Assembly (NCBI GenBank): GCA_964035015.1
Contig: CAXIUP010000270.1
Span: 529,001 to 593,000 of the forward strand
Direction: 5' to 3'
Origin: Corallium rubrum
Lineage: Eukaryota > Cnidaria > Anthozoa > Scleralcyonacea > Coralliidae
Length of the DNA: 64,000 nt
Within the stretch, counting starts at the first letter, position 1; each line of letters opens with the position of its first letter. The position numbers and the translations under genes are program-made. Under the pieces are notes generated by a model, which did not search any database, was not told the origin of the DNA, and worked only from the letters and a program-made list of their open reading frames with translations. Below are positions 34,484 to 58,413 of this stretch, in pieces.

Positions 34484-34532
34484 GCGGGCTAGCCCGGGTA
34501 CCCGGGCTGGCTCGCCCCATATAAACACCCCC
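34484..34532 (-). repeat. Harbinger right terminal inverted repeat
   Basis: gcgggctagcccgggtacccgggctggctcgccccatataaacaccccc; partner of the left end with a few differences. Directly followed by TTA. Confidence 0.9.
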
Positions 34533-34707
34533 TTAATTGAAATCATAAGACTTTCCCTGAGTAACAGTTCAAATTTATAAAGTGCTGAGGTGAGAATTTT
34601 AAAATCAGAAAAAGAAATAGGATGTCCAGTTGAATGCTTATGTGAGAGAATACTGGACATGGAAGTCGCTGAAATGGAGCGTTCTTTCCCAGTCATAGCT
34701 GAAATTC
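34533..34707 (-). pseudogene. Penelope-like element ORF, C-terminal segment
   Basis: Minus-strand reading AMTGKERSISATSMSSILSH, then TGHPISFSDFKIL and LLLRESLMIS, typical of the C-terminal GIY-YIG region of Penelope-like proteins. It is cut on the left by the Harbinger (TTA) and on the right by the 20.7-kb element (8-bp duplication 34700-34707). The upstream half is at 55426-55640. Confidence 0.8.
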
Positions 34708-34748
34708 GGCTTATGTACCGTGTAAGAACTCACCAGCTGCGTCACAAC
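34708..34748 (+). repeat. giant element, left terminal inverted repeat
   Basis: About 40 bp ending in gcgtcacaa; preceded by the duplication TGAAATTC. Pairs with 55385-55425. Confidence 0.85.
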
Positions 34749-34770
34749 TAGCGACACGTCACTTTCCTAC

Positions 34771-35418
34771 GTTGACAGGTCGACAGGTTTAACGTTTTGA
34801 ACTTTCTAATGTCGACCGGTCGACGGGTTAATATTTTTCGCTTTTCTTTGTCGACAGGTCGACAGGTTTAATGTTCAGTTGCGCTTTTTATGTCGACAGG
34901 TCGACAGGTTTAATGTTTTGAACTCTCTAATGTCGACCGGTCGACAGGTTAATATTTTTCGCTTTTCTTGGTCGACAGGTCGACAGGTTTAATGTTTTGC
35001 GCTTTCTATGTCGACAGGTCGACAGCTTTAATGTTTTGAGTTTTATATATGTCGACAGGTCGACAGGTTAATATTTTTCGCTTTTCTAGTCGACAGGTCG
35101 ACAGGTTTAGTGTTTTGCACTTTCTATGTCGACAGGTCGACAGCTTTAATGTTTTGGGCTTTCTATGTCGACAGGTCGACAGGTTAATATTTTTCGCTTT
35201 TCTTAGTCGACAGGTCGACAGGTCGACAGGTTTAGTGTTTTGCGCTTTCTGTGTCGACAGGTCGACAGGTTTAATGTTTTGAGCTTTCTATGTCGACAGG
35301 TCGACGGGTTAATATTTTGCGCTTTTCTTTGTCGACTGGTCGACAGGTTTAATGTTTTGAACTTTCTTTGTCGACAGGTCGATAGGTTGAATGTTTTGCG
35401 CTTTTCTTTGTCGACTGG
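34771..35418 (+). repeat. left iteron array, about 16 units of 38-42 bp
   Basis: Each unit is gtcgacaggtcgacaggtt followed by about 20 bp of AT-rich spacer of two alternating kinds (taatgttttgcgctttctat, or aatatttttcgcttttctt). One unit has a tripled half-site near 35,210. The core is two GTCGAC sites 8 bp apart, as expected for a dimer or tetramer binding site. The second part (from 35,048) and the following sequence to 35,959 are copied in the two arms. Confidence 0.9.
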
Positions 35419-35959
35419 TTTATTTTTGCGACTTAAAGCAAACATGTTTTTGACGTTATTACTAGAGTGTAAAGGAATGATTCTGCTGGATAGATCAACT
35501 TGCTTATTGTATTAAAAATTATGTATGAAAGATATGCCGCAATAGCGCGTGAAGTACCCTATCTTGCATTGTCTTATAATCATACAATCATTCGATTGCT
35601 TTCATTCTTTCCGAGTTAGAACTCAACGAATATACGCAATACTGATATATAGAGATTAGTTCATGATTGGTGAGCGCGTACGATTTTTATTCATGAGTTG
35701 TGAAGGATCGCAAACGAACGAGTGAGCGAAGCGAGTTTAGCGATCCTTCACAACGAGTGAATAATAAAAATAGGCATGCTACGCATGCATGTGTCCACCG
35801 CGCTGTTCCCCCAACGGACACAATGCCCTCAAACAACTCGTTGGCTATTTGATTGTCAAACGTAATCGATAATATTAAATGCTGTTATAGTTCAATGCTT
35901 GCATATAAGCCGATTATACAAATTTAAAGTTAATCACAATCGCTACTGCGCATTTACTG
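35419..35959 (+). repeat. triplicated segment next to the iteron array
   Basis: Occurs three times: here, inverted at about 41,125-41,680, and direct at about 48,718-49,265. It contains a hairpin near 35,690-35,770 (ttgtgaaggatcgc ... gcgatccttcacaa) that flanks gaacgagtgagcgaagcgagtt. No gene recognised. Confidence 0.85.
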
Positions 35960-36661
35960 AGATACTCATGTTCGGGTGAGTGAAATTTGAAATCCGCGTT
36001 TCCATGGTATTCGTCTGAGTGAGCTGCTTGACTGTAAAACTTGTCGAAAGCTGAAATTTCGAAGTGTTTCGCTTAGATCTTCACAAACTTTACGAAGAAT
36101 AGTATTTTGACTGTGTTCTGAATTCTTCCCATGCAAACGAATGTGCGTGAAAATTATTGTAAAGCGTATGACTGAAGTCAGAGAAATATATTATTGTAAA
36201 CACTAAAACACACGACGTTTCCGTGGACTTTATATTAAAGTCCAGTGATGTTTTGCAGGGGGAACGCGGGGGAACGGCGTCCCCCCACTATTTTTGTCGG
36301 GGGAACGCCATTCCCCCTGACATAAATTACGGTGGGGGAACGCCGTTCCCCAAACAGAAATTAAACGGAATTAAACGTATTGGAATACCGTCAATACCGC
36401 ACTATTTTTGCTTTGAGTCAATGAGTGTACTCGTTTTTTAACCAAGATAGCCAACCAGCTAGCTTGAGCCAGGCGTTTAGTAGTCGTTTCCCAGTTTTGC
36501 GCAAAGAAATGTCGAGAATGGAAACACAAAATAGAATAGTTTGAACTCTGAACGTTCAGTCATGATATATATCGTGACGAATGGAACGAGTACTGGTATC
36601 GTTAAGTTTTTGACGAATATTTGTGCAGATATTGATGAATGTAGATGTATTGAACTCTATT
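35960..36661. other. unique left part of the giant element; ggggaacg repeats
   Basis: 36,255-36,350 has four copies of ggggga/gggggaacgcc(g/a)ttccccc-type palindromes. Otherwise noncoding as far as I see. Confidence 0.5.
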
Positions 36662-36839
36662 AGTGTCGGATATTTTTTGTCACTGTCAGGGCTGACGCGT
36701 GTCACGAAATTATTTCCTCGGTCGAAAAAGGAGATTTGAATCATCGTTAGGATTAATTTACATCTAAAATAAATCAATTCTTCTTTGTACATTTAGTTTA
36801 TGCGAGTTTCAAAACCACAGTGAGATTCTCGGCTCATGT

Positions 36840-36925
36840 AATCGGCCCCTTAGGTGAATAAAATCGTCTGGCGTTAGCCAGAATAAAATGTAAAGTGCGC
36901 CCTTGTCCCTTAATGAGTTAAAAGG
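36840..36925. repeat. dispersed hairpin repeat, copy 2
   Basis: ggtgaataaaatcgtctggcgttagccagaataaaat, with gtccc...gag-type ends; same family as 21,200 and 61,558. Its arm partner is at about 53,595-53,672. Confidence 0.65.
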
Positions 36926-37023
36926 TTTATATGTTTCTGAATGTTGCAAATTTGAGTATTTTACGTTTTAATTAGCCGAATTAATGACGGCGTGTACTCA
37001 TGCGTGAACATACCGCCGTAAAC

Positions 37024-38091
37024 CAAGGGAGCACGTTAGAATGTGATAGTTCTTGTATAAAATAAAATATACTTTACTTACCTAAGTTGTTGACGTTTTG
37101 TGCGAGGCGCCGAGTTCGATAAAACCGCTGACGATATGAGCCCCCGACGAGCGAGCCGAATACTCTCCGAAGATACGCGAGGGCGGAGCGGGAAGGGAAA
37201 AGAGAAGGGGAGTGCAACTACCGAGCACGTGATGGCTTTCAGCCAATAAAATGGTTCATTTAGAAATAGCTTTTCTCCGATGCTCGTAGCAACCTTTCTC
37301 GTAGCAGTAGATACTAGATCGAGCCAAATACACTAAAATTATCATATTCTACGACTCGTTAAGTAACTACTAACTACCCTATTAAAGTTCTTGTAAGAAT
37401 TTTATTAAAAACAATGAATAGTTTTAACACAAAAGGATCAGTACTCGTACTGGTCGATCGTTCCACAAACCCGTCTCCTCTTCTTCTCGCACGAACTCAC
37501 GAAGGAAATAAATGAAACAAAAACTTCCCAAAATTTGAACGATTCAGTTGGTTGACCTTGCAATCTAACTCCTTTTGTATATGTTGTGGGCTTCTCCGGT
37601 ATTGAGATCATACTCCTGGAGCGTCGACAAACAAACCCGCGATGGCGCGATTCTGACAATAAAAATTCAAAATGACTTATAACTTATTCATGAAAGCCAA
37701 CGGTTTTCTCATCAGAGTCCAAATTGATAAATCATTCAACGAAAACAACTTACGTCCTGCTGTGAATATCACGAAGATCTGTTGTCTCGGTATTCGTATA
37801 TAATTGTTGTAAATAGCAACACTCTTTGTGCATAGCAACACTCTATGTGCATAGCAACGTGCTACGAGCATTGTCGAAAGAATCTTGTAAGTTGCACTCC
37901 CCTTCTCTTTTCCCTTCCCGCTCCGCCCTCGCGTATCTTCGGAGAGTATTCGGCTCGCTCGTCGGGGGCTCATATCGTCAGCGGTTTTATCGAACTCGGC
38001 GCCTCGCACAAAACGTCAACAACTTAGGTAAGTAAAGTATATTTTATTTTATACAAGAACTATCACATTCTATTACTAACGTGCTCCCTTG
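37024..38091. mobile_element. hAT-like non-autonomous element, 1,068 bp, left arm
   Basis: Ends CAAGGGAGCACGTTA and TAACGTGCTCCCTTG, with inverted ends about 200 bp long (37024-37225 and 37893-38091). They are flanked by cgtaaac on both sides (37017-37023, 38092-38098), a 7-bp and perhaps 8-bp duplication. The CA..G termini and duplication size suggest hAT. The interior contains minus-strand ORFs of 73 codons (37438-37659) and 110 codons (37677-38009, mostly TIR) without recognised domains. Confidence 0.65.
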
Positions 38092-38960
38092 CGTAAACCA
38101 CGATCGCTAACTACCCTAACAGCGCAAGAACTGGTGGATAGAACTATAACTCGCAATTAACAATTTCTTTGTAATGTTTACGGGGTAAACGTTATACAAA
38201 CTCCTACATGGGAAACTGATCTATTTTCTGACAGTTTTGTATTAACAAACAAGTGAACTGATCCCATCTCTTGCCACTTTCGTAATTGCTAAGCCGTTAT
38301 ATAAGAATGCTACTTAAATATCGCCAATTAAGGTTAAATGAAGCCAAGTTTCTTTCAAGCATTATGTACGAGTCGAATCCAACTGCGATCACCCCACCCA
38401 AGGTGCACGAGCTCCGTATAGGCGGGAATTTGACGTTAATCAATCTCACCCAGTCGGGCATTTGACTATTGAAAAAAAGTTGGTCAGATCGCCACAATCT
38501 AGCCATCTCTTCACTTTTGAAAATGCCTTTGTTTAAAGTCTGTTTAAAGATCTATATCTTCTTTAAAATAGTTTGATGATACGACCTAACCTATAGTCGT
38601 GTCTATAAGCTGGTTTTTAATACACAATTACACATGTCCAATAAAGGTAATATTAATAAAAAACAATATGATGAAATATTTCAAAGAAATATTTTGATAG
38701 AATTTGACGCCCTTTATAGACGATGGGACATTTGACCAAATTTTTTTGAGAAGTCAAATTCCCGCGGGTTTCCCCGGGGGGGAGACGATCACAGTTGGAA
38801 TTGACTCATAACAGTTTTGTTGTGATTAACCTTAAAGATCGTTGCCATGGAAACAACGACTATAAAAGATCATAGTTTTCAGTTCGTTATTTTCGGTGAA
38901 ATTTCTTGAAACGTCATAGTGTAATTTCAGGGGCCGCAGAGCACTTTTTAGACTGGGGGG
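38092..38960. other. arm segment without recognisable gene
   Basis: Same as 51,546-52,416 inverted. One minus-strand ORF of 69 codons (38297-38506) is kept in both arms but has no known motif. Confidence 0.4.
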
Positions 38961-39026
<66 letters not shown>

Positions 39027-39030
<4 letters not shown>

Positions 39031-39148
39031 CGCTTACCTCAAAAGTCTGCTACAGGCTGTTTCATCTAAAAAAAGAATCTTCAGGCAGATCCTGAAGATT
39101 CCTTTTTAGATGAAACAGCCTGTAGCAGACTTTTGAGGTAAGCGAAAA
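39027..39148. repeat. near-perfect hairpin between AT microsatellites, left arm
   Basis: ttttcgcttacctcaaaagtctgctacaggctgtttcatctaaaaa is followed by its reverse complement with a loop at aatcttcaggcagatcctgaagatt. An (AT)n run adjoins at 38,964-39,026. Confidence 0.9.
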
Positions 39149-39212
39149 TCTATATTTGCTCTAACTATATGTTATCGAGCACTCTTTGCGTTTCGTAGAC
39201 CAAAACCCACAC

Positions 39213-39213
<1 letters not shown>

Positions 39214-39273
<60 letters not shown>
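39214..39273. repeat. (AT)n microsatellites within the left arm
   Basis: Pure at dinucleotides; further runs at 38,964-39,026 and 39,565-39,624. Right-arm partners at about 50,771-50,839, 51,226-51,287 and 51,475-51,545. Confidence 0.95.
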
Positions 39274-39276
<3 letters not shown>

Positions 39277-39405
39277 TAATAAGGTTGTTCGAGTGTATAC
39301 CGACTGAGCTACACGGTCTGGCGGAGAAAGGTATGGGAATAATTGTTTATCGAAGTGCTTCGACATTCAGTATATAAACAATTATTCCCATACCTTTCTC
39401 CGCCA

Positions 39406-39470
39406 GACCGTGTAGCTCAGTCGGTAGAGCGTCTAGCCGGAAGGTCGTGGGTTCGATTCCTACTGGGGTC
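39406..39470 (+). pseudogene. tRNA-like sequence with shortened anticodon arm, left arm
   Basis: gaccgtgtagctcagtcgg, then ggttcgattcctactggggtc. D and T arms are intact but the anticodon arm has lost several bases compared with 51095-51166, so it cannot fold as a tRNA. Box A and box B remain. Confidence 0.7.
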
Positions 39471-39560
39471 TGCATTTTTAAAATGCTTCCCAGTTTGGTT
39501 TCATTACACTCGGAGAACAACCTTATTACCATTTATCCACCTGAGTGACAACTTCCACCA

Positions 39561-39624
<64 letters not shown>

Positions 39625-39627
<3 letters not shown>

Positions 39628-41124
39628 GTTGGTTTCGAAACGGAAGGTCAAAACGCAAAGGATGTTTTTCTAAAATATTTTCGTGGGAAAACAAACAAAA
39701 TCTTCCTCATTTTCGTCACTAGGTGAATTTTCCCATCGAAAGACGCACGTTTTGGTCTCTAAATGCGCAAACGCGGTTGCCTAACCCAGCCAAACAATGT
39801 CCGTTAGGAAAAACGTAGGCATCTAGATCGAATTCAAATTCCGGTATGATTCCACACATATACACCTTACTCAACCAGTTAACTTTCAGTTTTCTAATGT
39901 GAACGCTTGCGAGTAAGCAACTGTTGTTTTTGGAACCGTCCAAAGCTATATTCTATTCAGAAGAGACGAGAAGAGAAGAGAAGAGAAGCTTATCTACGTG
40001 TGGTACTAAAGTCTGCGTGCGTGTGCAAAGGCCTCAAAGTGAGTACTATGGCTAATATTGTTATGTTATTGCTATAACCTTTGTTTAGTCGAAGTTTGTC
40101 CCTTTTGAAAATGGGCGTTATAGAATATTCGCGCCGTTTCATAATTTTAATACTGATTTCCTTACTGATAATCCTTAAATATCGTCAGCTTGCGCGAATG
40201 TCTAAAAGGAAGTTAAAATCATAGCTTTATTTCGAATTTGCTTTCCCAAAATCGATCGCATAATCATTATCAAGTACGTATTAGTTGTAATTGTTATGTT
40301 TGTAGTATTCTCTTGTTTTGTTAATTGTATGTACCATAGTTTCTATTTCAATTGTCATATTCTGGTTCGAACCGATAAATCTTATCCTGATACACCTCGA
40401 TATGTACATCTATAGTTCGTCTATACGACATCTTGCCAATTCAACTACCTTAATTCTACAAATCGTTGTATCGTCAATCATTCTACAGTTAATACTCCAC
40501 TATCGTCAGTAACCAAGACTTGTATATATCCCATTGTTTGACTTATTAAATTGTTATAACATTGTAGTCAGAATTCTTTTGTCGTGTTCGATTTAATCTA
40601 CGCACAGTGCGTCTACCGAAGTAGATTCATTTGGATTCTGTTTGACATTGATTTCTATCCAGGTGTTGTTTGCGGCAAAGTTAGTACGCATTTCAAACTT
40701 TTTAGATCCACATTTTCTTTTTTGAGTACTGTCAACTGGCAAACATTTTAATGGAACAAAATGTGTGGTTGTTCAGATGGTTTTGTTAGTATCACCTAAT
40801 TTAATGCTTTTTTATAGCAGTTTCAGGCGATTCGCGCTCACAGGATGTAAAAGTTCTGGCAACGATAGTTGTTTTTGACATAAAGGAGTGGTTACCAAAT
40901 CACGCGTTTCAACGATATTTAGTAAATATTATCTGATTAAACAGTCTATTCCTATTCAGATCTCCTATTCAGATCTCACTAATATTGCTTTAAAACGGTC
41001 TTGATATTTTTTCGGACATCGGTGGTGTCGGTGGTTTTGTTGTTTTGTGTGATTTCCTAATCACTCCTTTAGCGAAATCTCGCCCGGTACAATGTTTCGG
41101 AAAGAGAATTAAAGAGGTACTAAC
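39625..41124. other. arm segment without recognisable gene
   Basis: Includes a short (agaag)n run at 39,960-39,990. A 64-codon hydrophobic ORF (40318-40512, and inverted at 49888-50082) is conserved between arms, as expected from duplication alone. Nothing else recognised. Confidence 0.4.
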
Positions 41125-41683
41125 TTTGCCTTGACTCAGTAAATGCGCAGTAGCGATTGTGATTAACTTTAAATTTGTATAATCGGCTTATATGCAAGCA
41201 TTGAACTATAACAGCATTTAATATTATCGATTGCGTTTGACAATCAAATAGCCAACGAGTTGTTTGAGGGCATTGTGTCCGTTGGGGGAACAGCGCGGTG
41301 GACACATGCATGCGTAGCATGCCTATTTTTATTATTCACTCGTTGTGAAGGATTGCTAAACTCGCTTCGCTCACTCGTTCGTTTGCGATCCTTCACAACT
41401 CATGAATAAAAATCGTACGCGCTCACCAATCATGAACTAATCTCTATATATCAGTATTGCGTATATTCGTTGAGTTCTAACTCGGAAAGAATGAAAGCAA
41501 TCGAATGATTGTATGATTATAAGACAATGCAAGATAGGGTACTTCACGCGCTATTGCGGCATATCTTTCATACATAATTTTTAATACAATAAGCAAGTTG
41601 ATCTATCCAGCAGAATCATTCCTTTACACTCTAGTAATAACGTCAAAAACATGTTTGCTTTAAGTCGCAAAAATAAACCAGTC

Positions 41684-42012
41684 GACGAAGAAAAGCGCAA
41701 AACATTCAACCTATCGACCTGTCGACAAAGAAAGTTCAAAACATTAAACCTGTCGACCAGTCGAGAAAAAGCGCAAAATATTAACCCGTCGACCTGTCGA
41801 CATAGAAAGCTCAAAACATTTTTAAACCTCCGACCTGTCGACATAGAAAGCGCAAAACACTACCTGTCGAACTGGACTAAGAAAAGCATTTTAACCTGGG
41901 AACAAATAGAAAGCGCAAAACATTAAAGCTGTCAGACCTGGTCTTGTTAGAAAGCGCAATTTAAACCTGTCGACCTAGCAGTTTCAGAAAGCGAAAATAT
42001 TAACCTGTCGAC
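41684..42012 (-). repeat. iteron array, left arm, degraded
   Basis: Same units as 48,359-48,727 in reverse. From about 41,820 the units are disrupted by small insertions and substitutions (for example cctgtcgaactggactaag), unlike the clean right-arm copy. That looks like either decay or poor consensus. Confidence 0.8.
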
Positions 42013-42039
42013 CCACAGGATATAAAACTCTTCTTTGCT

Positions 42040-42441
42040 GAACTGATAGTGACCTCGAGCAGCAAGGTAACCTGTCATTCTTTTATAACCAGTGTAAGGC
42101 TGAGTTCTTAATATTTCCTAACTGTTGAGTCCAGCTCTTCCAGAGTTAGATTTGTATATGTCCCCCTTATTGACATCCCAAAGTGCTGTAATCGTCGCTC
42201 GACTGTACGCTCACTTACACATCGGTGGTGTCGGCTGCGATTTGCTTAATGGTAAACAGTCTCTCCACAAGAAAGCTCAACTGTTCGTAAGGAATATTAA
42301 ATCTTGATCTTCCTCGATTGCCTGTGAAAATAACGTCGGGCTCAACGTTAATATCTTCTGAGCTGCATATTGAAGTTAAATCAATCAAAGCTTCGGCAAG
42401 AAGATCGATAACATGACGATCAATAAAACCACACTGATAGT
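42040..42441 (-). pseudogene. same HTH/integrase fragment in the left arm, without start
   Basis: Minus-strand copy of codons from about 53 on. It has a small change in the HTH region (a 12-base replacement near 42,228) that breaks the frame. It ends at the inner border of the arm at 42441. Confidence 0.7.
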
Positions 42442-42993
42442 ATATATAACGATTTCCCTTGGAATCAATGTAAACAGGTCAAGTGATTTTATTGTTTTCG
42501 AATGTTTTACAAACACGAGAGAACATTGAAAATTACGAGGTACAGTAATAGGCCGGGTGATTTTTGTTGTTCTCGAGTGTTTGTAACCCCTGGTAAAACA
42601 CGATACACGAGTTTATGAAATAACTTCTCAATCGTCTATTATAGTAAAGGGACTTGGTGACATTTGTGCATATTAGATTAGACAATGATGTATATTAGTA
42701 CACAATAGTCTCATGTTGAATTTATAATTAAGAAATGTGGTAATAAACGGTTCTTTGTTTGTGCCGTTTATTATCTGATTTCTTAATTATAAATTCAGTT
42801 TGCGCGACCTTTACCGGATTTCAAAACTCATGCAGATGATCACTTTTTTTTCTCTGATTGCCTAATTAACTCATCATTGAGTTTGAGAAGAATACGTCAA
42901 GCAATTATACAATTGGGTGCATACAAAATCTACATATAGTTTCATTAATCTAGAGCCATCATCCAATCGCAGCAAATGCAACGAATTTCTTAC
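42442..42993. other. spacer segment with a hairpin
   Basis: At 42,716-42,800 tgaatttataattaagaaat ... taataaacgg pairs with ccgtttattatctgatttcttaattataaattca. Otherwise noncoding. Confidence 0.5.
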
Positions 42994-43326
42994 CTAAAAC
43001 GATAATCAGTACTTCAGAAAAAGGAGCAGGAGTCATACCACTCACTGTAATTCTAAGTCTGTATGTTCCATTGTAATCCAGACTCACATTTGTTAAAACC
43101 AATGTTGCTGGCTTTATAACGTTGATATTAGGTAAACTGGACTTGGTTGTATCTACTGCGCCACTATAAATACCAGCCTGTACTCCATACGATTTACCAA
43201 GATTGCTGAAAAACCATTCAATAAAACCGGTTCTTGCGGCACCAAAATCATATGTCCATTGTAAAGTAACATTTGATCCTTTAGGCACGTAAGTAAGATT
43301 ACCAAAAGATGGAAGGGTGATACTAG
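42994..43326 (-). CDS. isolated immunoglobulin-domain exon (phase 1-1)
   Basis: 333 bp between an acceptor (aattatag|ctagt) and a donor (ttttag|gtaaga) on the minus strand, exactly 111 codons, phase 1 at both ends as is usual for Ig-domain exons. The reading SITLPSFGNLTYVPKGSNVT, LQWTYDF, IEWFFSN, then LVLTNVSLDYNGTYRL has the strand B/C region with W and the D-x-N/G-x-Y strand F signature. The canonical strand-B cysteine is replaced by L (VTLQW) and no cysteine stands at the usual strand F position, so the disulfide is absent. No neighbouring exon of the same gene is recognisable. It may be a captured exon or a relic of a cell-surface receptor gene. Confidence 0.55.
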
Positions 43327-43553
43327 CTATAATTAGATAAAAACTATATACTGAGCTTATAGTGACCCTAAAATATTTAAAGGAATTAAAGATAAGCTAA
43401 TTGATATTACTATTTTAAGTAAATATTCCTTTGCTGCCTTAGAATCTACATATGACTCAGATGACTCTCGAACCTGGAAAACTATATGTCTAAAATGTAA
43501 TTCAGCCTGTGGTCTTTTAAAGATGTTGTGTTGTTTTTAATCTGTCATTAATA

Positions 43554-43734
43554 GACCACTTTCATAATAGAGACTAATTTGAATATTCTTTTGTGTGCAT
43601 TTAAGCCTTTCTGGCCTCGTTTGTGTGTATTCAGTTCAAAAGAATCTTTGCTTCACAACGAGACCAGAAAGGCTTATTTAGATATACATGTACATAAAAG
43701 AATATTTAAAGTGAAGCCCTTTATGAAAGTGGTC
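43554..43734. mobile_element. TA-flanked MITE of 181 bp
   Basis: gaccactttcataa ... and ... ttatgaaagtggtc are inverted; TA at 43552-43553 and 43735-43736. Longer arms include gaatattctttt and gcctttctggcctcgtt with their reverse complements. Confidence 0.75.
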
Positions 43735-46113: not shown

Positions 46114-46885
46114 AATATATACTCAGTCTCTCAAACCGTCCACTCCTATTAACGTTGATATTTTGGAATCCCTACTAACTAATCACCCTGATCCTTCATT
46201 TGTGTCTTTTGTGTGCACTGGTTTGCGAAATGGCTTTCAAATTGGTTACGAGGGAGCACGACAGCCATATTTTGCAAAAAATCTAAAATCTGCTTATATT
46301 CACCCGGAAATCGTCGATGACAACCTACTTAACGAGGTCAAATTGGGTCGCACCGCGGGACCTTTCAAAGAGATCCCGTTTCCTTGTTTTCAAGTTTATC
46401 CGATTGGCTTGGTTCCTAAGAAACATACAGATAAGTGGCGCACGATATTTCATCTTTCGCACCCCAAAGGGGCCGGAACAAGCGTTAACGATCATATCTC
46501 ACCCGAAGATTACTCGCTACAGTATGTCAAACTTGACGACGCCATTTCCCTCGTGATCAAGTCAGGACGAAACTGTCTCATGGCTAAAACCGATGTACAA
46601 TCGGCTTTTCGTAACGTTCCAGTGCACCCAGATGACTGGGAACTTCTTGGCATGTGTTGGAAGAATCTTTACTATTTCGACAGAGTTCTCCCTTTCGGCC
46701 TTCGTAGCGCACCTTTTCTTTTTAACCTTATCTCAGACGCAGTCGAATGGCTTCTTAAAAACACCCTTCAAGTCCAAAATGTGTTACACATATTAGATGA
46801 TTTCTTCCTCGTAGAACCTGCGCCTAGGTCACACTGTCTCACCTCTCTGTGTAAATTACTTACTCTCTTTACTGAGCTAGACATG
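45965..46885 (+). pseudogene. DIRS-type reverse transcriptase, truncated
   Basis: The first ATG-like start is at 45965, inside gag. Conserved RT steps: GLVPKKHTDKWRTIFHLSHP, SVNDHI, CLMAKTDVQSAFRNVPVHP (first catalytic D), DRVLPFGLRSAPFLF, and VLHILDDFFLVEPAP (catalytic pair in ILDD form). The frame is lost into unrelated AT-rich DNA after LLTLFTELD; thumb, RNase H and recombinase are missing. The terminal 35 codons to 46,999 are not part of the protein. Confidence 0.85.
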
Positions 46886-46932
46886 TATAGCAGTACAGCC
46901 TGTACACTGTACAGGTGTACTATCTGTTTATC

Positions 46933-46983
<51 letters not shown>

Positions 46984-47273
46984 ATACATCACTGTCTAAA
47001 AAACGTGTTGGACAATAAAATATGTCAATGCACCCATGCAAGCTGTGTAGTTAAACATTTTTAACATAGTTATAGAACAAGTATAGTTGACACTTGACAG
47101 TTTTTATCGTCAAAGTGGAGACTATTGTGTACTTAGCAATTACCATGCATACATACGTTTACCCACCCAAGTTGGGTAAATGTCCACGTGCAGGCTAATC
47201 TAGACCAAGCTAATGACTCGGCAAAACTATACTTCACACCCCCCCCATTGAAGGAGGCCTAGCGCCGCCCCTG
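46886..47273. other. (AT)n and noncoding spacer
   Basis: (AT)n at 46,939-46,981, then unassigned sequence. No gene. Confidence 0.6.
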
Positions 47274-47395
47274 CGAATCCGTCTGCATTCCTAAACGTTT
47301 TTGGCTAGAGAATTCAAAGTAAGCAAATGGACCAATCATATTGCAGTGATCTCACGGGTGTCAATTTCAAAGGCTAAGGAATGCAGACGGATTCG
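47274..47395. mobile_element. small MITE-like foldback, 122 bp
   Basis: cgaatccgtctgcattcc and ggaatgcagacggattcg are inverted ends. The sequence following it (gttttggcggaaaa / tttccgccaaaat) forms another short palindrome at about 47,400-47,440. Confidence 0.65.
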
Positions 47396-47484
47396 TTAAT
47401 GTTTTGGCGGAAAACTATGAGGGGTGATTTCCGCCAAAATTCAACTTTACATTATGTAATTAACAGAGGCATTTTGTTAACTTG

Positions 47485-47690
47485 TTTGGTATTCTATTAT
47501 GCTGTTTTGTATTTCGTTGTGCGGTTTCGTATTTCATTATGCTGTTTTGCATTCTATTATGCCGTTTCGTATTTCATTATGCTGTTTTGCATTCTATTAT
47601 GCCGTTTCGTATTTCATTATGCTGTTTTGCATTCTATTATGCCGTTTCGTATTTCATTACGCTGCTTCGTATTTTGCTTTCATTGCGTTT
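47485..47690. repeat. 20/40-bp minisatellite
   Basis: Alternating gctgttttgcattctattat and gccgtttcgtatttcattat blocks, about ten in all. The long frames here come from the period only. Confidence 0.9.
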
Positions 47691-47786
47691 CATTATGCTT
47701 ACGTCATGTTCTGCATGACTCTCAGTAACACTTTTTAGCACACACGGCCGCGCAAAACTGGAACTAAGTTATATATATGTAAAAAC

Positions 47787-48344
47787 ATGGCCGAGGATTT
47801 GGAAGGACGGCAGTTTATAAGAAATGGCATTGGATGTTGTATTTTAAACATTTTGTATCAAGTCGAAGCTCGCGGTGGAGAAGCTGAATGTCGGGAAAAT
47901 GCTCTCTTTAGACTAGAATGGCTATTTGGTGTCGTAACAAGGTACTATCAGTGTGGTTTTATTGATCGTCATGTTATCGATCTTCTTGCCGAGGCTTTGA
48001 TTGATTTAACTTCAATATGCAGCTCAGAAGATATTAACGTTGAGCCCGACGTTATTTTCACAGGCAATCGAGGAAGATCAAGATTTAATATTCCTTACGA
48101 ACAGTTGAGCTTTCTTGTGGAGAGACTGTTTACCATTAAGCAAATCGCAGCCGCACTCGGTGTAAGTGAGCGTACAGTCGAGCGACGATTACAGCACTTT
48201 GGGATGTCAATAAGGGGGACATATACAAATCTAACTCTGGAAGAGCTGGACTCAACAGTTAGGGAAATATTAAGAACTCAGCCTTACACTGGTTATAAAA
48301 GAATGACAGGTTACCTTGCTGCTCGAGGTCACACAGTTCAGCAA
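47787..48344 (+). pseudogene. N-terminal part of an HTH/integrase-like protein, truncated
   Basis: ATG at 47787 (MAEDLEGRQFIRNGIGCC). 186 codons, ending at HTVQQRRV; the sequence then runs into the iteron array. It has a clear helix-turn-helix (FTIKQIAAALGVSERTVERR, about residues 116-135) followed by LEELDSTVREIL and PYTGYKRMTGYL. I recall this N-terminus in large metazoan transposon-like proteins with an rve-type integrase core; here the core is missing. A TATA-like atatatatg lies 20-30 bp upstream. The first ~52 codons lie outside the arm, so only this copy has a start codon. Confidence 0.65.
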
Positions 48345-48358
48345 AGAAGAGTTTTATA

Positions 48359-48727
48359 TATGTCGACAGGTCGACAGGTTAATATTTTTCGCTTTTCTAG
48401 TCGACAGGTCGACAGGTTTAGTGTTTTGCGCTTTCTATGTCAACAGGTCGACAGCTTTAATGTTTTGCGCTTTCTATGTCGACAGGTCGACAGGTTAATA
48501 TTTTTCGCTTTTCTTAGTCGACAGGTCGACAGGTTTAGTGTTTTGCGCTTTCTATGTCGACAGGTCGACAGGTTTAATGTTTTGAGCTTTCTATGTCGAC
48601 AGGTCGACGGGTTAATATTTTGCGCTTTTCTTTGTCGACTGGTCGACAGGTTTAATGTTTTGAACTTTCTTTGTCGACAGGTCGATAGGTTGAATGTTTT
48701 GCGCTTTTCTTTGTCGACTGGTTTATT
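48359..48727 (+). repeat. iteron array, right arm, about 9 units
   Basis: gtcgacaggtcgacaggtt units as in the left terminal array. It starts immediately after the broken HTH/integrase gene, at the junction gagttttatatatgtcgac, which also occurs inside the terminal array at about 35,038. Confidence 0.9.
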
Positions 48728-50767
48728 TTTGCGACTTAAAGCAAACATGTTTTTGACGTTATTACTAGAGTGTAAAGGAATGATTCTGCTGGATAGATCA
48801 ACTTGCTTATTGTATTAAAAATTATGTATGAAAGATATGCCGCAATAGCGCGTGAAGTACCCTATCTTGCATTGTCTTATAATCATACAATCATTCGATT
48901 GCTTTCATTCTTTCCGAGTTAGAACTCAACGAATATACGCAATACTGATATATAGAGATTAGTTCATGATTGGTGAGCGCGTACGATTTTTATTCATGAG
49001 TTGTGAAGGATCGCAAACGAACGAGTGAGCGAAGCGAGTTTAGCGAATCCTTCACAACGAGTGAATAATAAAAATAGGCATGCTACGCATGCATGTGTCC
49101 ACCGCGCTGTTCCCCCAACGGACACAATGCCCTCAAACAACTCGTTGGCTATTTGATTGTCAAACGCAATCGATAATATTAAATGCTGTTATAGTTCAAT
49201 GCTTGCATATAAGCCGATTATACAAATTTAAAGTTAATCACAATCGCTACTGCGCATTTACTGAGTCAAGGCAAAGTTAGTACCTCTTTAATTCTCTTTC
49301 CGAAACATTGTACCGGGCGAGATTTCGCTAAAGGAGTGATTAGGAAATCACACAAAACAACAAAACCACCGACACCACCGATGTCCGAAAAAATATCAAG
49401 ACCGTTTTAAAGCAATATTAGTGAGATCTGAATAGGAGATCTGAATAGGAATAGACTGTTTAATCAGATAATATTTACTAAATATCGTTGAAACGCGTGA
49501 TTTGGTAACCACTCCTTTATGTCAAAAACAACTATCGTTGCCAAGAACTTTTACATCCTGTGGGCGCGAATCGCCTGAAACTGCTATAAAAAAGCATTAA
49601 ATTAGGTGATACTAACAAAACAATCTGAACAACCACACATTTGTTCCCATTAAAATGTTTGCCAGTTGACAGTACTCAAAAAGAAAATGTGGATCTAAAA
49701 AGTTTGAAATGCGTACTAACTTTGCCGCAAACAACACCTGGATAGAAATCCAATGTCAAACAGAATCCAAATGAATCTACTTCGGTAGACGCGGTGCGTA
49801 GATTAAATCGAACACGACAAAAGAATTCCTGACTACAATGTCATAACAATTTAATAAGTCAAACAATGGGATATATACAAGTCTTGGTTACTGACGATAG
49901 TGGAGTATTAACTGTAGAATGATTGACGATACAACGATTTGTAGAATTAAGGTAGTTGAATTGGCAAGATGTCGTATAGACGAACTATAGATGTACATAT
50001 CGAGGTGTATCAGGATAAGATTTATCGGTTCGAACCAGAATATGACAATTGAAATAGAAACTATAGTACATACAATTAACAAAACAAGAGAATACTACAA
50101 ACATAACAATTACAACTAATACGTACTTGATAATGATTATGCGATCGATTTTTGGGAAAGCAAATTCGAAATAAAGCTTATGATTTTAGCTTCCTTTTAG
50201 ACTTCGCGCAAACTGACGATAACTAAGGAATATCAGTAAGGAAATCAGTATGCAAATTATGAAACGGCGCGAATATTCTATAACGCCCATTTTCAAAAGG
50301 GACAAACTTCGACTAAACAAAGGTTATAGCAATAACATAATAATATTAGCCATAGTACTCACTTTGGTTTGCACACGCACCAGACTTTAGTACCACACGT
50401 AGATAAGCTTCTCTTCTCTTCTCTTCTCGTCTCTTCTGAATAGAATATAGCTTTGGACGGTTCCAAAAACAACAGTTGCTTACTCACAAGCGTTCACATT
50501 AGAAAACTGAAGTTAACTGGTTGAGTAAGGTGTATATGTGTGGAATCATACCGGAATTTGAATTCGATCTAGATGCCTACGTTTTTCCTAACGGACATTG
50601 TTTGGCTGGGTTAGGCAACCGCGTTTGCGCATTTAGAGACCAAAACGTGCGTCTTTCGATGGGAAAATTCACCTAGTGACGAAAATGAGGAAGATTTTGT
50701 TTGTTTTCCCACGAAAATATTTTAGAAAAACATCCTTTGCGTTTTGACCTTCCGTTTCGAAACCAAC

Positions 50768-50842
<75 letters not shown>

Positions 50843-50932
50843 TGGTGGAAGTTGTCACTCAGGTGGATAAATGGTAATAAGGTTGTTCTCCGAGTGTAAT
50901 GAAACCAAACTGGGAAGCATTTTAAAAATGCA

Positions 50933-51004
50933 GACCCCAGTAGGAATCGAACCCACGACCTTCCGAACGCTAGGCGGACGCTCTACCGACTGAGCTACAC
51001 GGTC
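50933..51004 (-). tRNA. second tRNA-like copy, opposite strand
   Basis: Exact inverted copy of 51095-51166. The two 5' ends face each other across aataattgtttatacactgaatg and its mirror. The downstream sequence (gcatttttaaaatgcttcccag) is also the same. Confidence 0.5.
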
Positions 51005-51094
51005 TGGCGGAGAAAGGTATGGGAATAATTGTTTATACACTGAATGTCGAAGCGGTACTTCGATAAACAATTATTCCCATACCTTTCTCCGCCA

Positions 51095-51166
51095 GACCGT
51101 GTAGCTCAGTCGGTAGAGCGTCCGCCTAGCGTTCGGAAGGTCGTGGGTTCGATTCCTACTGGGGTC
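51095..51166 (+). tRNA. tRNA-like gene, anticodon AGC (Ala-type), repeat-borne
   Basis: 72 bases fold as a cloverleaf. Acceptor GACCGTG / TGGGGTC has one G-G mismatch and two wobbles. D-stem is GCTC/GAGC. The anticodon stem TCCGC/TCGGA has one mismatch, and loop CTAGCGT gives anticodon AGC. T-stem is GTGGG/CCTAC with loop TTCGATT. Pol III boxes are good: TAGCTCAGTCGG and GGTTCGATTCC. It lies head-to-head with an identical copy on the minus strand, 90 bp away, and between AT microsatellites, so a tRNA-derived repeat is as likely as a working tRNA. Confidence 0.5.
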
Positions 51167-51224
51167 TGCATTTTTAAAATGCTTCCCAGTTTGGTTTCAT
51201 TACACTCGGAGAACAACCTTATTA

Positions 51225-51288
<64 letters not shown>

Positions 51289-51352
51289 GTGTGGGTTTTG
51301 GTCTACGAAACGGAAAGAGTGCTCGATAACATATAGTTAGAGCAAATATAGA

Positions 51353-51470
51353 TTTTCGCTTACCTCAAAAGTCTGCTACAGGCTGTTTCATCTAAAAAAG
51401 GAATCTTCAGGATCTGCCTGAAGATTCTTTTTTAGATGAAACAGCCTGTAGCAGACTTTTGAGGTAAGCG

Positions 51471-51474
<4 letters not shown>
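51353..51474. repeat. near-perfect hairpin, right-arm copy
   Basis: Same hairpin as 39027-39148, followed by (AT)n at 51,475-51,545. Confidence 0.9.
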
Positions 51475-51544
<70 letters not shown>

Positions 51545-52423
51545 TGTCCCCCCAGTCTAAAAAGTGCTCTGCGGCCCCTGAAATTCCCACAACACTATGA
51601 CGTTTCAAGAAATTTCACCGAAAATAACGAACTGAAAACTATGATCTTTTATAGTCGTTGTTTCCATGGCAACGATCTTTAAGGTTAATCACAACAAAAC
51701 TGTTATGAGTCAATTCCAACTGTGATCGTCTCCCCCCCGGGGAAACCCGCGGGAATTTGACTTCTCAAAAAAATTTGGTCAAATGTCCCATCGTCTATAA
51801 AGGGCGTCAAAGCTCTATCAAAATATTTCTTTGAAATATTTCATCATATTGTTTTTTATTAATATTACCTTTATTGGACATGTGTAATTGTGTATTAAAA
51901 ACCAGCTTATAGACACGACTATAGGTTAGGTCGTATCATCAAACTATTTTAAAGAAGATATAGATCTTTAAACAGACTTTAAACAAAGGCATTTTCAAAA
52001 GTGAAGAGATGGCTAGATTGTGGCGATCTGACCAACTTTTTTTCAATAGTCAAATGCCCGACTGGGTGAGATTGATTAACGTCAAATTCCCGCCTATACG
52101 GAGCTCGTGCACCTTGGGTGGGGTGATCGCAGTTGGATTCGACTCGTACATAATGCTTGAAAGAAACTTGGCTTCATTTAACCTTAATTGGCGATATTTA
52201 AGTAGCATTCTTATATAACGGCTTAGCAATTACGAAAGTGACAAGAGATGGGATCAGTTCACTTGTTTGTTAATACAAAACTGTCAGAAAATAGATCAGT
52301 TTCCCATGTAGGAGTTTGTATAACGTTTACCCCGTAAACATTACAAAGAAATTGTTAATTGCGAGTTATAGTTCTATCCACCAGTTCTTGCGCTGATAGG
52401 GTAGTTAGCGGTCGTGGTTTACG

Positions 52424-53491
52424 CAAGGGAGCACGTTAGTAATAGAATGTGATAGTTCTTGTATAAAATAAAATATACTTTACTTACCTAAGTTGTTGAC
52501 GTTTTGTGCGAGGCGCCGAGTTCGATAAAACCGCTGACGATATGAGCCCCCGACGAGCGAGCCGAATACTCTCCGAAGATACGCGAGGGCGGAGCGGGAA
52601 GGGAAAAGAGAAGGGGAGTGCAACTTACAAGATTCTTTCGACAATGCTCGTAGCACGTTGCTATGCACATAGAGTGTTGCTATGCACAAAGAGTGTTGCT
52701 ATTTACAACAATTATATACGAATACCGAGACAACAGATCTTCGTGATATTCACAGCAGGACGTAAGTTGTTTTCGTTGAATGATTTATCAATTTGGACTC
52801 TGATGAGAAAACCGTTGGCTTTCATGAATAAGTTATAAGTCATTTTGAATTTTTATTGTCAGAATCGCGCCATCGCGGGTTTGTTTGTCGACGCTCCAGG
52901 AGTATGATCTCAATACCGGAGAAGCCCACAACATATACAAAAGGAGTTAGATTGCAAGGTCAACCAACTGAATCGTTCAAATTTTGGGAAGTTTTTGTTT
53001 CATTTATTTCCTTCGTGAGTTCGTGCGAGAAGAAGAGGAGACGGGTTTGTGGAACGATCGACCAGTACGAGTACTGATCCTTTTGTGTTAAAACTATTCA
53101 TTGTTTTTAATAAAATTCTTACAAGAACTTTAATAGGGTAGTTAGTAGTTACTTAACGAGTCGTAGAATATGATAATTTTAGTGTATTTGGCTCGATCTA
53201 GTATCTACTGCTACGAGAAAGGTTGCTACGAGCATCGGAGAAAAGCTATTTCTAAATGAACCATTTTATTGGCTGAAAGCCATCACGTGCTCGGTAGTTG
53301 CACTCCCCTTCTCTTTTCCCTTCCCGCTCCGCCCTCGCGTATCTTCGGAGAGTATTCGGCTCGCTCGTCGGGGGCTCATATCGTCAGCGGTTTTATCGAA
53401 CTCGGCGCCTCGCACAAAACGTCAACAACTTAGGTAAGTAAAGTATATTTTATTTTATACAAGAACTATCACATTCTAACGTGCCCCCTTG
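52424..53491. mobile_element. hAT-like element, right-arm copy
   Basis: Same element in inverted position, also 1,068 bp, flanked by gtttacg (52417-52423, 53492-53498). Its presence with flanks in both arms shows it was in place before the arm was duplicated. Confidence 0.65.
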
Positions 53492-53853
53492 GTTTACGGC
53501 GGTATGTTCACGCATGAGTACACGCCGTCATTAATTCGGCTAATTAAAACGTAAAATACTCAAATTTGCAACATTCAGAAACATATAAACCTTTTAACTC
53601 ATTAAGGGACAAGGGCGCACTTTACATTTTATTCTGGCTAACGCCAGACGATTTTATTCACCTAAGGGGCCGATTACATGAGCCGAGAATCTCACTGTGG
53701 TTTTGAAACTCGCATAAACTAAATGTACAAAGAAGAATTGATTTATTTTAGATGTAAATTAATCCTAACGATGATTCAAATCTCCTTTTTCGACCGAGGA
53801 AATAATTTCGTGACACGCGTCAGCCCTGACAGTGACAAAAAATATCCGACACT

Positions 53854-54658
53854 TACACTCGAAGGCTGCGCAATTGCAAGTGAAATAAAACCTTGATGCG
53901 TGTTTCATTTATTCATTCTTTAAACTATACACAACCATTGTTTCATGTGTACAGTTGAAAGTAAAGGCTTTATTTTTACGCTTTCAGTTTTTCTTCGTTC
54001 AACAGTGGTTCAAAGATTCTGCATGACGGAACAAAGAGAATAGTTTGTTTCACAGCAGGTTTCACAGAACAACGGATGTTCCCTCGCACGCATATTTATT
54101 CCCATACAGTGATACACGCTTTTTATATCTATATTTTAATACATACATAATACATACATGCAATGTATGCACTATATGACTATGTGCTCAGCAATTTACT
54201 GCACTGGAAGGGATTTATTTGTCTATCTTTTTACAAAAGGGTTTTGACACAAGGTTATATTGTTGTAAGTGATGTTGTAAGTGGATCATAGATCTATAAT
54301 AACCAGATTTCTTGTTGTCAAAACCGATTCCTTCCTAATCTTGTCGATCTTTGTATTGAATGTGTAGGTTATATTCATAATTGTCGTTGAATCGTTGTGT
54401 TATTTTGACGGCATTTTTACAAATCATTGATTATGTATGTGGCGTTAACTCTGTAACTGAAACGATATTGCTAAAACCATGGAACCATGGTTGCCATGTA
54501 CTTTTTCTGAGCTTCACTGAAGTCGACAGTCAAGAGTGAAATGCCCAATATCACTTATTGTTTCAATACTTTGACGATTCAAGTGATTTCGTTATAAAAC
54601 ATTTTGTCATACAGTACTTTTTTATTCAGTGAGATTATTGTGTTACGGGATGAAGTTT
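53854..54658. other. unique right part of the giant element, no gene
   Basis: AT-rich; contains atacatacataatacatacatgc words at about 54,140. No ORF with recognisable content. Confidence 0.45.
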
Positions 54659-55287
54659 CGAACCTGTCGACGTGTCGACATCGTGCATGAACATCTTCGA
54701 ACCTGTCGACGTGTCGACATCGTAGTGAACATCTTCGAACCTGTCGACATCGTAGTAAACATCTTCGAACCTGTCGACGTGTCGACATCGCAGTGAACAT
54801 CTTCGAACCTGTCGACGTGTCGACATCGTAGTAAACATTTTCGAACCTGTCGACCTGTCGACATCGTAGTGAATATCTTCGAACCTGTCGACCTGTCGAC
54901 ATCGTAGTGAACATTTTCGAACCTGTCGACCTGTCGACATCGTAGTGAACATTTTCGAACCTGTCGACGTGTCGACATCGTAGTGAACATTTTCGAACCT
55001 GTCGACGTGTCGACATCGTAGTGAACATTTTCGAACCTATCGACCTGTCGACATCGTAGTGAACATTTTCGAACCTGTCGACGTGTCGACATCGTAGTAA
55101 ACATTTTCGAACCTGTCGACGTGTCGACATCGTATAGTGAACATTTTCGAACCTGTCGACGTGTCGACATCGTAGTGAACATCTTCGAACCTGTCGACGT
55201 GTCGACATCGTAGTGAATATCTTCGAACCTGTCGACCTGTCGACATCGTAGTAAACATCTTCGAACCTGTCGACACGTCGACATACT
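54659..55287 (-). repeat. right iteron array, about 16-17 units of 38 bp
   Basis: Plus-strand unit cgaacctgtcgac(g/c)tgtcgacatcg plus tagtgaacat(c/t)tt. Reversed, it gives GTCGAC(A/G).GTCGACAGGTTCG, the same core as the left array but with a different spacer. One unit (about 54,730) has lost half of its core. Long open frames here are by-products of the 38-bp period. Confidence 0.92.
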
Positions 55288-55384
55288 AGACCGATCAACG
55301 TAAGTCGTTTAGACATTCGACACCCTACAACTATATAAGCTTAGACCCGTGCTTACACCTTTAATAATATACATTCTCGTCTCA

Positions 55385-55425
55385 CTTGTGACGTAGCTGG
55401 TGATGTCTTACACGGCACATAAGCC
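55385..55425 (-). repeat. giant element, right terminal inverted repeat
   Basis: Plus strand cttgtgacgtagctggtgatgtcttacacggcacataagcc, followed by TGAAATTC. Inverted partner of 34708-34748. Confidence 0.85.
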
Positions 55426-55640
55426 TGAAATTCCCATATGGTCTGAAATACGCGTGTGAATATGTCGGCATGTTTGTCCGACATACAATGCTTCACAGCA
55501 TTGCAGCATTGACACAATGCTTCACAGCATTGACACTTATACGAGTACACAACATGTGATTTCAAACCAAAAGGAATTCTGTCTTTGGAAGGGAAAAAAT
55601 TAGAAAGGCGACAAGGACGAAATACGAAACGAAAACCGAT
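55426..55640 (-). pseudogene. Penelope-like element ORF, GIY-YIG segment
   Basis: Minus-strand reading (frame of DRIPFGLKSHVVYSYKCQCC), then a 29-bp tandem duplication that shifts the frame. After it come YVGQTCRHIHTRISDHMGIS, the core of a GIY-YIG endonuclease. The reading ends at the 8-bp duplication (55426-55433) and resumes at 34707 with AMTGKER. The RT part would lie to the right but I cannot follow it past about 55,640. Confidence 0.75.
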
Positions 55641-58386: not shown

Positions 58387-58413
58387 TCGCAATTACAACA
58401 GCAAAGGATCCAG

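Follow-up and report, generated by a model that had tools for sequence, protein, structure and literature searches.

The 20.7-kb element found in the window (the whole stretch of Corallium rubrum DNA analyzed, 64,000 nucleotides long) is, with a probability of roughly 70%, a foldback element derived from a family of giant cut-and-paste DNA transposons, non-autonomous and moved in trans. Its two ends (GGCTTATGT... at 34708 on the plus strand and at 55425 on the minus strand) are identical at 37 of 45 positions in an ungapped comparison, whereas six mononucleotide shuffles give a maximum of 24-25 of 45, and the 55425 end is the top inverted match to the first 45 bases of the element when the whole window is searched. 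The target-site duplication (TSD) TGAAATTC is present at 34700-34707 (left copy) and at 55426-55433 (right copy). The interrupted host target is a C-terminal fragment on the minus strand, which we take to be Penelope-like and presumably GIY-YIG-like; its downstream half lies at 34539-34699 and it resumes at 55434 to about 55631. Once the element and one TGAAATTC are excised, the minus strand reads ...YVGQTCRHIHTRISDHMGIS/AMTGKERSISATS...HSTGHPISFSDFKILTSALYKFELLLRESL with the frame unshifted.

Searches with the rejoined target give matches that run through the join. When the 80-residue joined reading is used as query (join after residue 25; 150 matches scored of 1,927 candidates), 149 of the 150 scored matches align from residue 1-4 to residue 77-79, across the join, and the window's own copy aligns over residues 23-80 only. 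With 600 nt of joined flanks as query (40 of 741 candidates scored), 34 of 44 matches cross the join (position 300), at 70-77% identity, and eight cover one side only, the two halves of the window appearing separately; none of these 44 matches is a near-identical allelic empty site. This confirms the earlier note's observation of one bounded insertion of 20.7 kb, whose termini are real, with an 8-bp duplication at both ends and a reading frame that rejoins.

The window copy shows the long inverted arms, the tandem subrepeats and the bounding TSD of the foldback-type structural class. The left outer end (34708-36536, plus strand) is of A type, with the terminus GGCTTATGTACCGTGTAAGA..., an iteron array at 34771-35383 (17 cores) and an inner part; it is common to the A ends of three other copies (C37, C30, and C203), the matches to C30 and C203 ending at 36536. 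Next comes the left copy of a DUF3987-side subterminal module (36537-41135, plus strand), common to C1, C37, C37b, and C30. It contains a nested 1066-bp inverted-repeat element (37026-38091, mirrored at 52424-53489) with TIRs of about 200 bp and a 9-bp TSD, CGTAAACCA, at 37017-37025 and 38092-38100, which is absent from the corresponding site in the same four copies. The left arm then continues with an inverted inner A end (41135-42026, minus strand, corresponding to 35961 to 35038), in which the iteron array is decayed (3 cores), and with a partial arm belonging to a separate palindromic IS3EU-like repeat of about 2 kb (42027-42442, minus strand).

On the other side of the central spacer (42443-47416) one finds an arm of the IS3EU-like palindromic repeat (47417-48352, plus strand), with the terminus TATGAGGGGTG... 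and an HTH reading frame (P0003 residues 1-205), followed by an inner A end (48353-49265, plus strand, corresponding to 35038-35961) that mirrors 41135-42026 and has nine iteron cores at 48362-48686. The right copy of the DUF3987-side module (49265-53853, minus strand) carries the same nested 1066-bp insertion at 52424-53489. The element closes with a B-type end (53854-55425, minus strand; terminus GGCTTATGTGCCGTGTAAGA..., iteron array of 16 cores at 54666-55282), the inner part of which (53853-54660) matches the DUF3987-side ends of C1 at 98.5% and of C37b at 99.0%. Both outer ends match ends from the DUF3987 side (the left is of subtype A, the right of subtype B), and they stand head to head. 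The large internal inverted arms claimed in the earlier note (36662-42442 and 47943-53853, about 5.8 kb each) hold, as do the nested iteron arrays: the core GTCGACnnGTCGAC occurs 17, 3, 9, and 16 times in the four arrays (one mismatch allowed), against a shuffle mean of 0.1. The spacer includes a high-copy repeat (about 42475-42897), a minus-strand ORF that looks like an exon (42959-43396, P0005; Ig-like by eye only, with no Pfam match at E <= 0.01), and reverse-transcriptase and zinc-knuckle ORFs that are DIRS-like by eye (44532-46999). The interior of the window copy has been rearranged to this extent, and its ends are still those of a proper insertion.

Further copies of the terminus and of the iteron core, for which the earlier note proposed a search, are present in the host genome. 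The A-end terminus gives 8 matches and the B-end terminus 19 (own copies counted), and the iteron motif has 188 exact matches in 474 Mb, its reversed control having 1. Five of the seven end-pairs examined, the window copy included, have perfect 8-bp duplications, all of different sequence (in the other four, AATTTAAG for C1, GAACGTTT for C285, AGTGTACC for C3, and AAAACAAC for C5), and these five copies are 20.7 to 43.9 kb long. In C30, a further A/B copy, the 8-bp sequences at the two ends do not match, and one end of C37b is missing its first 32 bases. C1, the relative with two intact ends that was read from end to end, is 26.6 kb long and has coding genes; its inverted ends are of only about 0.55-0.75 kb, so that it has no foldback shape. 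The match between the window and C1 halts at 61157874 and resumes at 61179355, and the C1 genes lie in the unmatched interval; nothing in the window copy matches the coding part of C1, and neither a DUF3987 nor a transposase gene is seen in this copy.

C1 and C30, the gene-bearing copies studied in most detail, each have two genes between iteron-bearing inverted ends. One codes for a DUF3987-type P-loop ATPase and the other for a transposase composed of an N-terminal zinc region, a D-D-E core, an OTU protease, and a CXC domain. Transposases of this DDE-OTU-CXC kind occur at 40 merged loci of the host genome, and DUF3987 lies within 30 kb at 25 of these, against 0.22 expected under uniform placement; within the same distance there is no match at the other 15. 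Among nine aligned transposases D269, D341, H366, and E475 are invariant, and so are Cys684 and His831 of the OTU and the eight cysteines of the CXC domain. The nine-member profile matches PDB entries only in the OTU and CXC stretches (the OTU-stretch matches include chains labelled RNA polymerase), and the core alone, compared with PDB by sequence, finds only chance-level mannanase matches (E >= 0.085). Scans with two peptide patterns each, taken from a two-sequence alignment and reaching close relatives only, confirm no viral relative among 18 pattern matches in viral contigs and no prokaryotic one among 194 in genome contigs.

The transposase family is possibly Mutator/IS256-like, judging from a comparison that covered profile similarity and the D...D...(x2)H...E core of MULEs, for which D269, D341, H366, and E475 are the candidate residues. 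In a Pfam scan of the nine transposases from relatives (E <= 1), 15 families match any member. Matches to IS256 (three of nine, best 1.1e-3), ISLre2 (two of nine, best 7.6e-4), and DDE_Tnp_ISL3 (four of nine, best 0.033) are marginal, and the ZSWIM1-3 RNaseH-like family matches one member at 0.2. P-type transposase is absent from the 15 families, and neither MULE (PF10551) nor KDZ (PF18758) matches any of the nine. All host MULE matches (n = 98) are more than 4 kb away from the 40 merged loci and no host KDZ match (n = 30) falls at a transposase locus, the lists being compared by eye. Because the MULE and KDZ Pfam models match no transposase locus, the superfamily is uncertain; KDZ (Kyakuja-Dileera-Zisupton) itself is not supported on these two counts. 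An hhalign comparison with five host MULEs yields a 39-column alignment about the second D and the H with a probability of 24% (P 8e-4), the controls giving 0.2-1.0%. The 8-bp TSD fits both the 7-8 bp of Galileo and the P superfamily and the Mutator-like range, given as 8 to 11 bp in the table of a MULE survey (PMC6446971, in part). The family does not fit Ginger1 in its TSDs, which are of 8 bp, with five different sequences, and not 4-bp CCGG- or CCGT-like.

Most DNA transposons of eukaryotes measure a few kilobases, and here a single genome has a family at 20.7 to 43.9 kb (the five copies with exact TSDs) with a gene pair recurring at 25 of 40 transposase loci. Size and gene pair together raise a testable question: is a dedicated ATPase used by a eukaryotic cut-and-paste transposon to handle very large DNA? 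Tentatively, and with somewhat less than even confidence, the family may be an undescribed giant animal superfamily that combines a replication-type P-loop ATPase (DUF3987) with a transposase bearing a deubiquitinase-like domain. If so, there may be a link between transposition and replication or helicase action, and the iteron ends may keep very large, scrambled, cargo-bearing non-autonomous copies mobile, the window foldback with its exon-like host fragment being one example.

The two 5.8-kb arms derive from a single copy, since the deletion junction 41135|35961, the nested insertion, and the piece of IS3EU-like repeat are common to both. Under our preferred reading of a foldback derivative moved in trans, a copy with this deletion would have been duplicated in inverted orientation, probably via template switching in repair or replication, and about 5 kb of unrelated DNA would have ended up between the arms. 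A transposase supplied from elsewhere would recognize both outer ends, its probable binding sites being the iterons, and the foldback unit would then have inserted into the Penelope-like fragment. The foldback form is seen in one instance, hence nothing shows that this form, rather than its ends, has transposed. Several observations count against this account: the arms are 98.98% alike in 38092-41135, which is not especially close for a recent duplication (the right arm and C37b are at 99.18%), and there are also the unmatched TSD of C30, the end loss of C37b, and the 15 transposase loci without DUF3987.

Alternatively, and with a distinctly smaller chance of being right, an ordinary A/B-ended member inserted first, and the arms and spacer formed later in place (gap repair after abortive excision, inverted duplication, gene conversion). 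The arm junction speaks for this, as its full-length matches (n = 2) are both inside the window element and it is found at no other locus (40 of 98 candidates scored). So do the mosaic ends of other copies (in C30 the DUF3987 side has a B end and the transposase side an A end) and their non-coding modules, which are about 95-98% alike next to coding regions whose DNA is about 66-74% alike. Galileo, too, recruits internal sequence into its TIRs, and gap repair is discussed by its authors (PMC4168063). However, as both ends of the window copy are DUF3987-side, a normal two-sided element must also have lost its whole transposase side.

It is quite improbable that the mirror arms were produced in the assembly, through a false join or a palindromic read caused by a missed adapter. 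In favour of this, the left inner iteron array looks decayed, with 39 of the 70 mismatches between arms falling in two 250-bp bins from 41750 to 42249, and at sites differing between the arms in 38092-41135 the other copies agree with the right arm 21 times and with the left 6 times, as if the left arm were unpolished. Yet the outer ends differ (A and B) and share the 8-bp TSD and the rejoined frame, the spacer, about 5 kb long, has no mirror counterpart, and many indels, including one of 85 bp, separate the arms. Slightly less credible still is a composite transposon, in which two complete inverted copies lying nearby now mobilize the DNA between them. Unrelated cargo is indeed flanked by two inverted family segments, but a scan of the window for the terminus motif with up to 4 mismatches finds it only at 34708 and 55425, never at the inner edges of the arms. 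Moreover, the same junction and the same nested insertion are at mirrored places in both arms, which are therefore not independent insertions, and this contradicts a composite. The poorest candidate is a greatly enlarged Foldback, Galileo, or TU proper, which the long arms with tandem subrepeats and the 8-bp TSD (7-8 bp in Galileo; PMC4168063, in part) would suit, but which has against it the lack of any P-type match in the nine Pfam-scanned transposases and an intact copy, C1, without foldback shape.

The resemblance to these elements drawn in the earlier note survives for the arms, the iterons, and the TSD and fails for Galileo membership and for the shape of C1; membership of the family in Foldback, Galileo, or TU is not supported. 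For Foldback and TU the likeness drawn in the note is a putative one. The nearest named relative found, its kinship being putative, is MuDR-6_HM, which from its suffix HM we take to come from Hydra, a cnidarian. Placed in group 14 of the MULE survey, it is Mutator-like, has one ORF and, like the family here, carries an 'Ovarian Tumour Gene' (OTU) motif; its row gives no TIR and no TSD length, and the DUF3987 partner, the iterons, and the 20-44 kb size are unmentioned for it in the sections available (PMC6446971). Galileo (P superfamily, Drosophila) has similarly extended, variable TIRs, tandem repeats in one copy, two subfamilies, and a longest copy made of two TIRs without the transposase segment; in contrast, that copy is 9,021 bp, the transposase is P-type, and the available extracts do not mention OTU, CXC, or DUF3987 (PMC4168063).

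Among other systems, the Tm1 Mutator/Foldback elements of root-knot nematodes share composite TIRs, variable tandem-repeat number, 8-10-bp TSDs, a nested insertion in one copy, and a putative transposase in some copies, but their TSDs are mostly 9 bp, the repeat unit is about 14 bp, and the text seen mentions no such gene pair (PMC3169594). The Tetris foldback of Drosophila virilis is likewise apparently non-autonomous, likely moved in trans, and has tandem repeats inside its TIRs, although these are of about 220 bp and the excerpt names no autonomous partner (PMC4079207). Ginger1, a DNA transposon that occurs in Hydra among other hosts, has in some families an OTU domain placed on the C-terminal side of the transposase, but it has a Gypsy-type integrase, a 4-bp CCGG- or CCGT-like TSD, and a length of about 2.6-7 kb (PMC2836005). 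KolobokP is rejected as a counterpart, its long repeats being direct and not inverted (PMC9587614). Plant MULEs with multiple TIRs also have extra TIR copies in mostly non-autonomous elements, but their TIRs are mostly tandem instead of long inverted arms and they are much smaller, with a peak at 1.3-1.4 kb; slippage, recombination, and acquisition are discussed as origins of the extra TIRs (PMC3310237).

The element extends from 34708 to 55425 (20,718 bp), and 37 positions agree between its first 45 bases and the reverse complement of its last 45, compared with 24-25 in six shuffles. TGAAATTC lies on either side, and once the element and one TGAAATTC are taken out, a minus-strand reading that we take to be Penelope-like becomes continuous. 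In the genome searched (assembly G000, 474 Mb in 312 contigs, the window being C279:529001-593000), 149 of 150 scored matches to the joined 80-aa reading (1,927 candidates) align across the join, the sole exception being the window copy, and the join of the 600-nt flanks is spanned in 34 of 44 matches (40 of 741 candidates scored), at 70-77% identity. The boundaries that the earlier note had drawn from the rejoined frame are thus borne out by both protein and nucleotide matches. In a genome match search with both flanks, nothing but the two halves at C279 came out as near-identical, so that no empty allele of the insertion site was found; the boundary proof rests on paralogous empty sites rather than on an allelic one. 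The long minus-strand frame at 33074-34729 includes a Penelope-like tail and a PIF/Harbinger-type DDE_Tnp_4 transposase (E 1e-31), and by this frame two mobile elements abut at the insertion site. Beyond the element, 58010-60037 holds several tandem arrays of 20-33 bp (CGAGCATGGGTATA-like units).

The ends fall into two subtypes, A (window left end, 34708), with at least 8 matches on five contigs, and B (right end, 55425), with at least 19, the window's own included in both counts. Among the seven end-pairs examined, which leave out the single ends C112, C23, C20, C203, C197, and C37:8833608, five have perfect 8-bp duplications. The earlier note had proposed looking for further copies of the terminus with such duplications, and these exist: besides the window copy (TGAAATTC, 20.7 kb end to end), they are C1 (AATTTAAG, 26.6 kb), C285 (GAACGTTT, 22.5 kb), C3 (AGTGTACC, 26.5 kb), and C5 (AAAACAAC, 43.9 kb), named by contig, the full reading covering the window copy and C1 only. 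C30 (19.9 kb) has no matching 8-bp duplication (GGCCAACA versus GGGCCAAG), and C37b (C37:8478880-8491300, 12.4 kb), a C1-type copy with an internal deletion of ~14 kb, lacks 32 bases at one end. Two B ends on C112 (L069, C112:341300; L070, C112:54931) lack the first 11 bases and have nearly identical flanks; they look like a locus duplicated after truncation.

In the copies read, the ends are followed closely inward by arrays in which GTCGACnnGTCGAC recurs every ~38-39 bp. There are 17 and 16 cores in the outer arrays of the window copy, 15 and 10 in C1, 5 and 10 in C30, 10 and 12 in C37b, 12 in C37, 11 in C203, and 7 in C197. GTCGACNNGTCGACAGGTT occurs 188 times genome-wide (reversed control: 1), and among the 100 places listed 99 are, by eye, at known family ends (the exception is C37:4341297). 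These iterons are plausible candidates for transposase-binding sites.

In C1 and C30 the order inward from the DUF3987-side end is a non-coding module, the DUF3987 gene, a small conserved ORF, and the transposase. The DUF3987 protein (E 3.3e-24 for the C30 piece) contains a P-loop-like AESGSNKST and KDEAH. Upstream of its gene there is an ~85% self-complementary stretch (C1:61159501-61159936), with a counterpart at the matching place in C37b (C37:8484798-8485469). The transposase frame has 1059 aa from stop to stop in C30 and is interrupted by stops in C1. An alignment of nine members (C30 plus eight others at 29-35% identity) keeps D269, D341, H366, and E475, the OTU residues Cys684 and His831, eight cysteines at 876-917, and, near the N-terminus, C103, C149, and H153. 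Pfam matches in these nine are to MSL2-CXC (5/9), OTU (5/9), DDE_Tnp_ISL3 (4/9, best 0.033), and DUF6729 (2/9), and NCBIfam matches to IS256 (3/9) and ISLre2 (2/9). An hhalign comparison with five host MULEs aligns 39 columns in the region of the second D and the H (probability 24%, P 8e-4), versus 1.0% and 0.2% for the PIF and reverse-transcriptase controls. From these comparisons the core is taken, not proven, to be divergent Mutator/IS256-like.

Genome searches gave at least 52 transposase matches (43 of 263 candidates scored), merged into 40 loci, and at least 56 DUF3987 matches (112 of 115 scored), merged into 44. DUF3987 is found within 30 kb of 25 of the 40 transposase loci (0.22 expected under uniform placement); two of the 15 without it, C203:965312 and C37:8486322, belong to the family itself. 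Conversely, 24 of the 44 DUF3987 loci have a listed transposase at most 30 kb away and 20 do not. The C284 and C120 transposases are nearly identical in the alignment; some loci may be haplotype duplicates, which would inflate these counts. A KDZ match (C1:70583033) and a DUF3987 match (C1:70586491) pair ~3 kb apart in G000, and DUF3987 may also travel with transposases of other kinds. No description of the DUF3987 and DDE-OTU-CXC transposase pair appeared in the titles and opening lines of the papers listed, a scope outside which lie most subscription journals and Repbase. A MULE survey (PMC6446971) includes the cnidarian MuDR-6_HM and records an OTU motif for it, so that a relative may already be catalogued.

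The genome searches list neither transposase nor DUF3987 within the window, C1 61157874-61179355 has no match there, and the other fetched copies account by match for 11,712 of the element's 20,718 bp. On the left, the A end (34708-36536) is followed by the DUF3987-side module (36537-41135), and C37, whose A end is on its DUF3987 side, matches 35420-37025 unbroken at 98.7%. On the right, the B end (55425-53854) is followed by the same module. The B-end stretch 53853-54660 is 98.5% identical to the DUF3987-side end of C1 and 99.0% identical to that of C37b. Hence, each outer end of the window copy corresponds to a DUF3987-side end. At 53853, the edge of arm homology, ~275 bp of C1 are absent from the window copy. 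The same 1066-bp element, flanked by a 9-bp duplication, is nested in both modules and is missing from four other copies. Further in, each arm breaks off at 41135 and continues with the inner A end inverted (35961 to 35038); a 301-bp query of this junction has two full-length matches, both in the window copy (40 of 98 candidates scored). Because they share junction and nested insertion, the arms (36662-42442 and 47943-53853) show a common origin.

Across 5,758 aligned bases the arms show 70 mismatches, of which the inner iteron region holds 39. Decay is much heavier in the left inner array (41859-42030) than in its mirror (48350-48540); either it is real or the sequence, lying in a hairpin, is unpolished. 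Identity over 38092-41135 is 98.98% between the arms and 99.18% between the right arm and C37b, which does not clearly place the duplication after the spread of the family; at arm-differing sites there, other copies agree with the right arm at 21 and with the left at 6. The foldback form probably arose by a deletion in a family copy, an inverted duplication by template switching, and a recombinational exchange of A and B ends, for which the mosaic C30 is an example within the family. With the foldback form seen once, either order of rearrangement and insertion would fit, and we prefer the one in which the rearrangement came first.

Further inward, past the inner A end of each arm, come pieces (42027-42442 and 47417-48352) of a palindromic repeat of ~2 kb whose termini read TATGAGG. 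At three loci that were read (L045, L046, L047) it is flanked by duplications of 6 bp; one of these loci sits in a TATTC repeat, where the duplication is weak evidence. TATGAGGGGTG is found at its termini, and each of its arms has an HTH frame whose match to the IS3 transposase model is sub-threshold (20.4 bits, cut-off 160). The repeat resembles IS3EU, which is described with a 6-bp TSD and TAYGG..CCRTA (PMC12730594), and it looks like a non-autonomous family of that type. The ~5-kb spacer between the arms contains a high-copy repeat, an exon-like ORF, and reverse-transcriptase and zinc-knuckle ORFs. The exon-like ORF (42959-43396, minus strand), Ig-like by eye, has splice-site-like edges and no Pfam match at E <= 0.01; its best genome match (C156:423598-423946, 94% over 349 bp) stops near the exon edges, with flanks unmatched, and it is possibly a captured fragment of a host gene. 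The remaining ORFs, with a reverse-transcriptase match at 1.1e-8 and a weak zinc-knuckle match, appear DIRS-like by eye.
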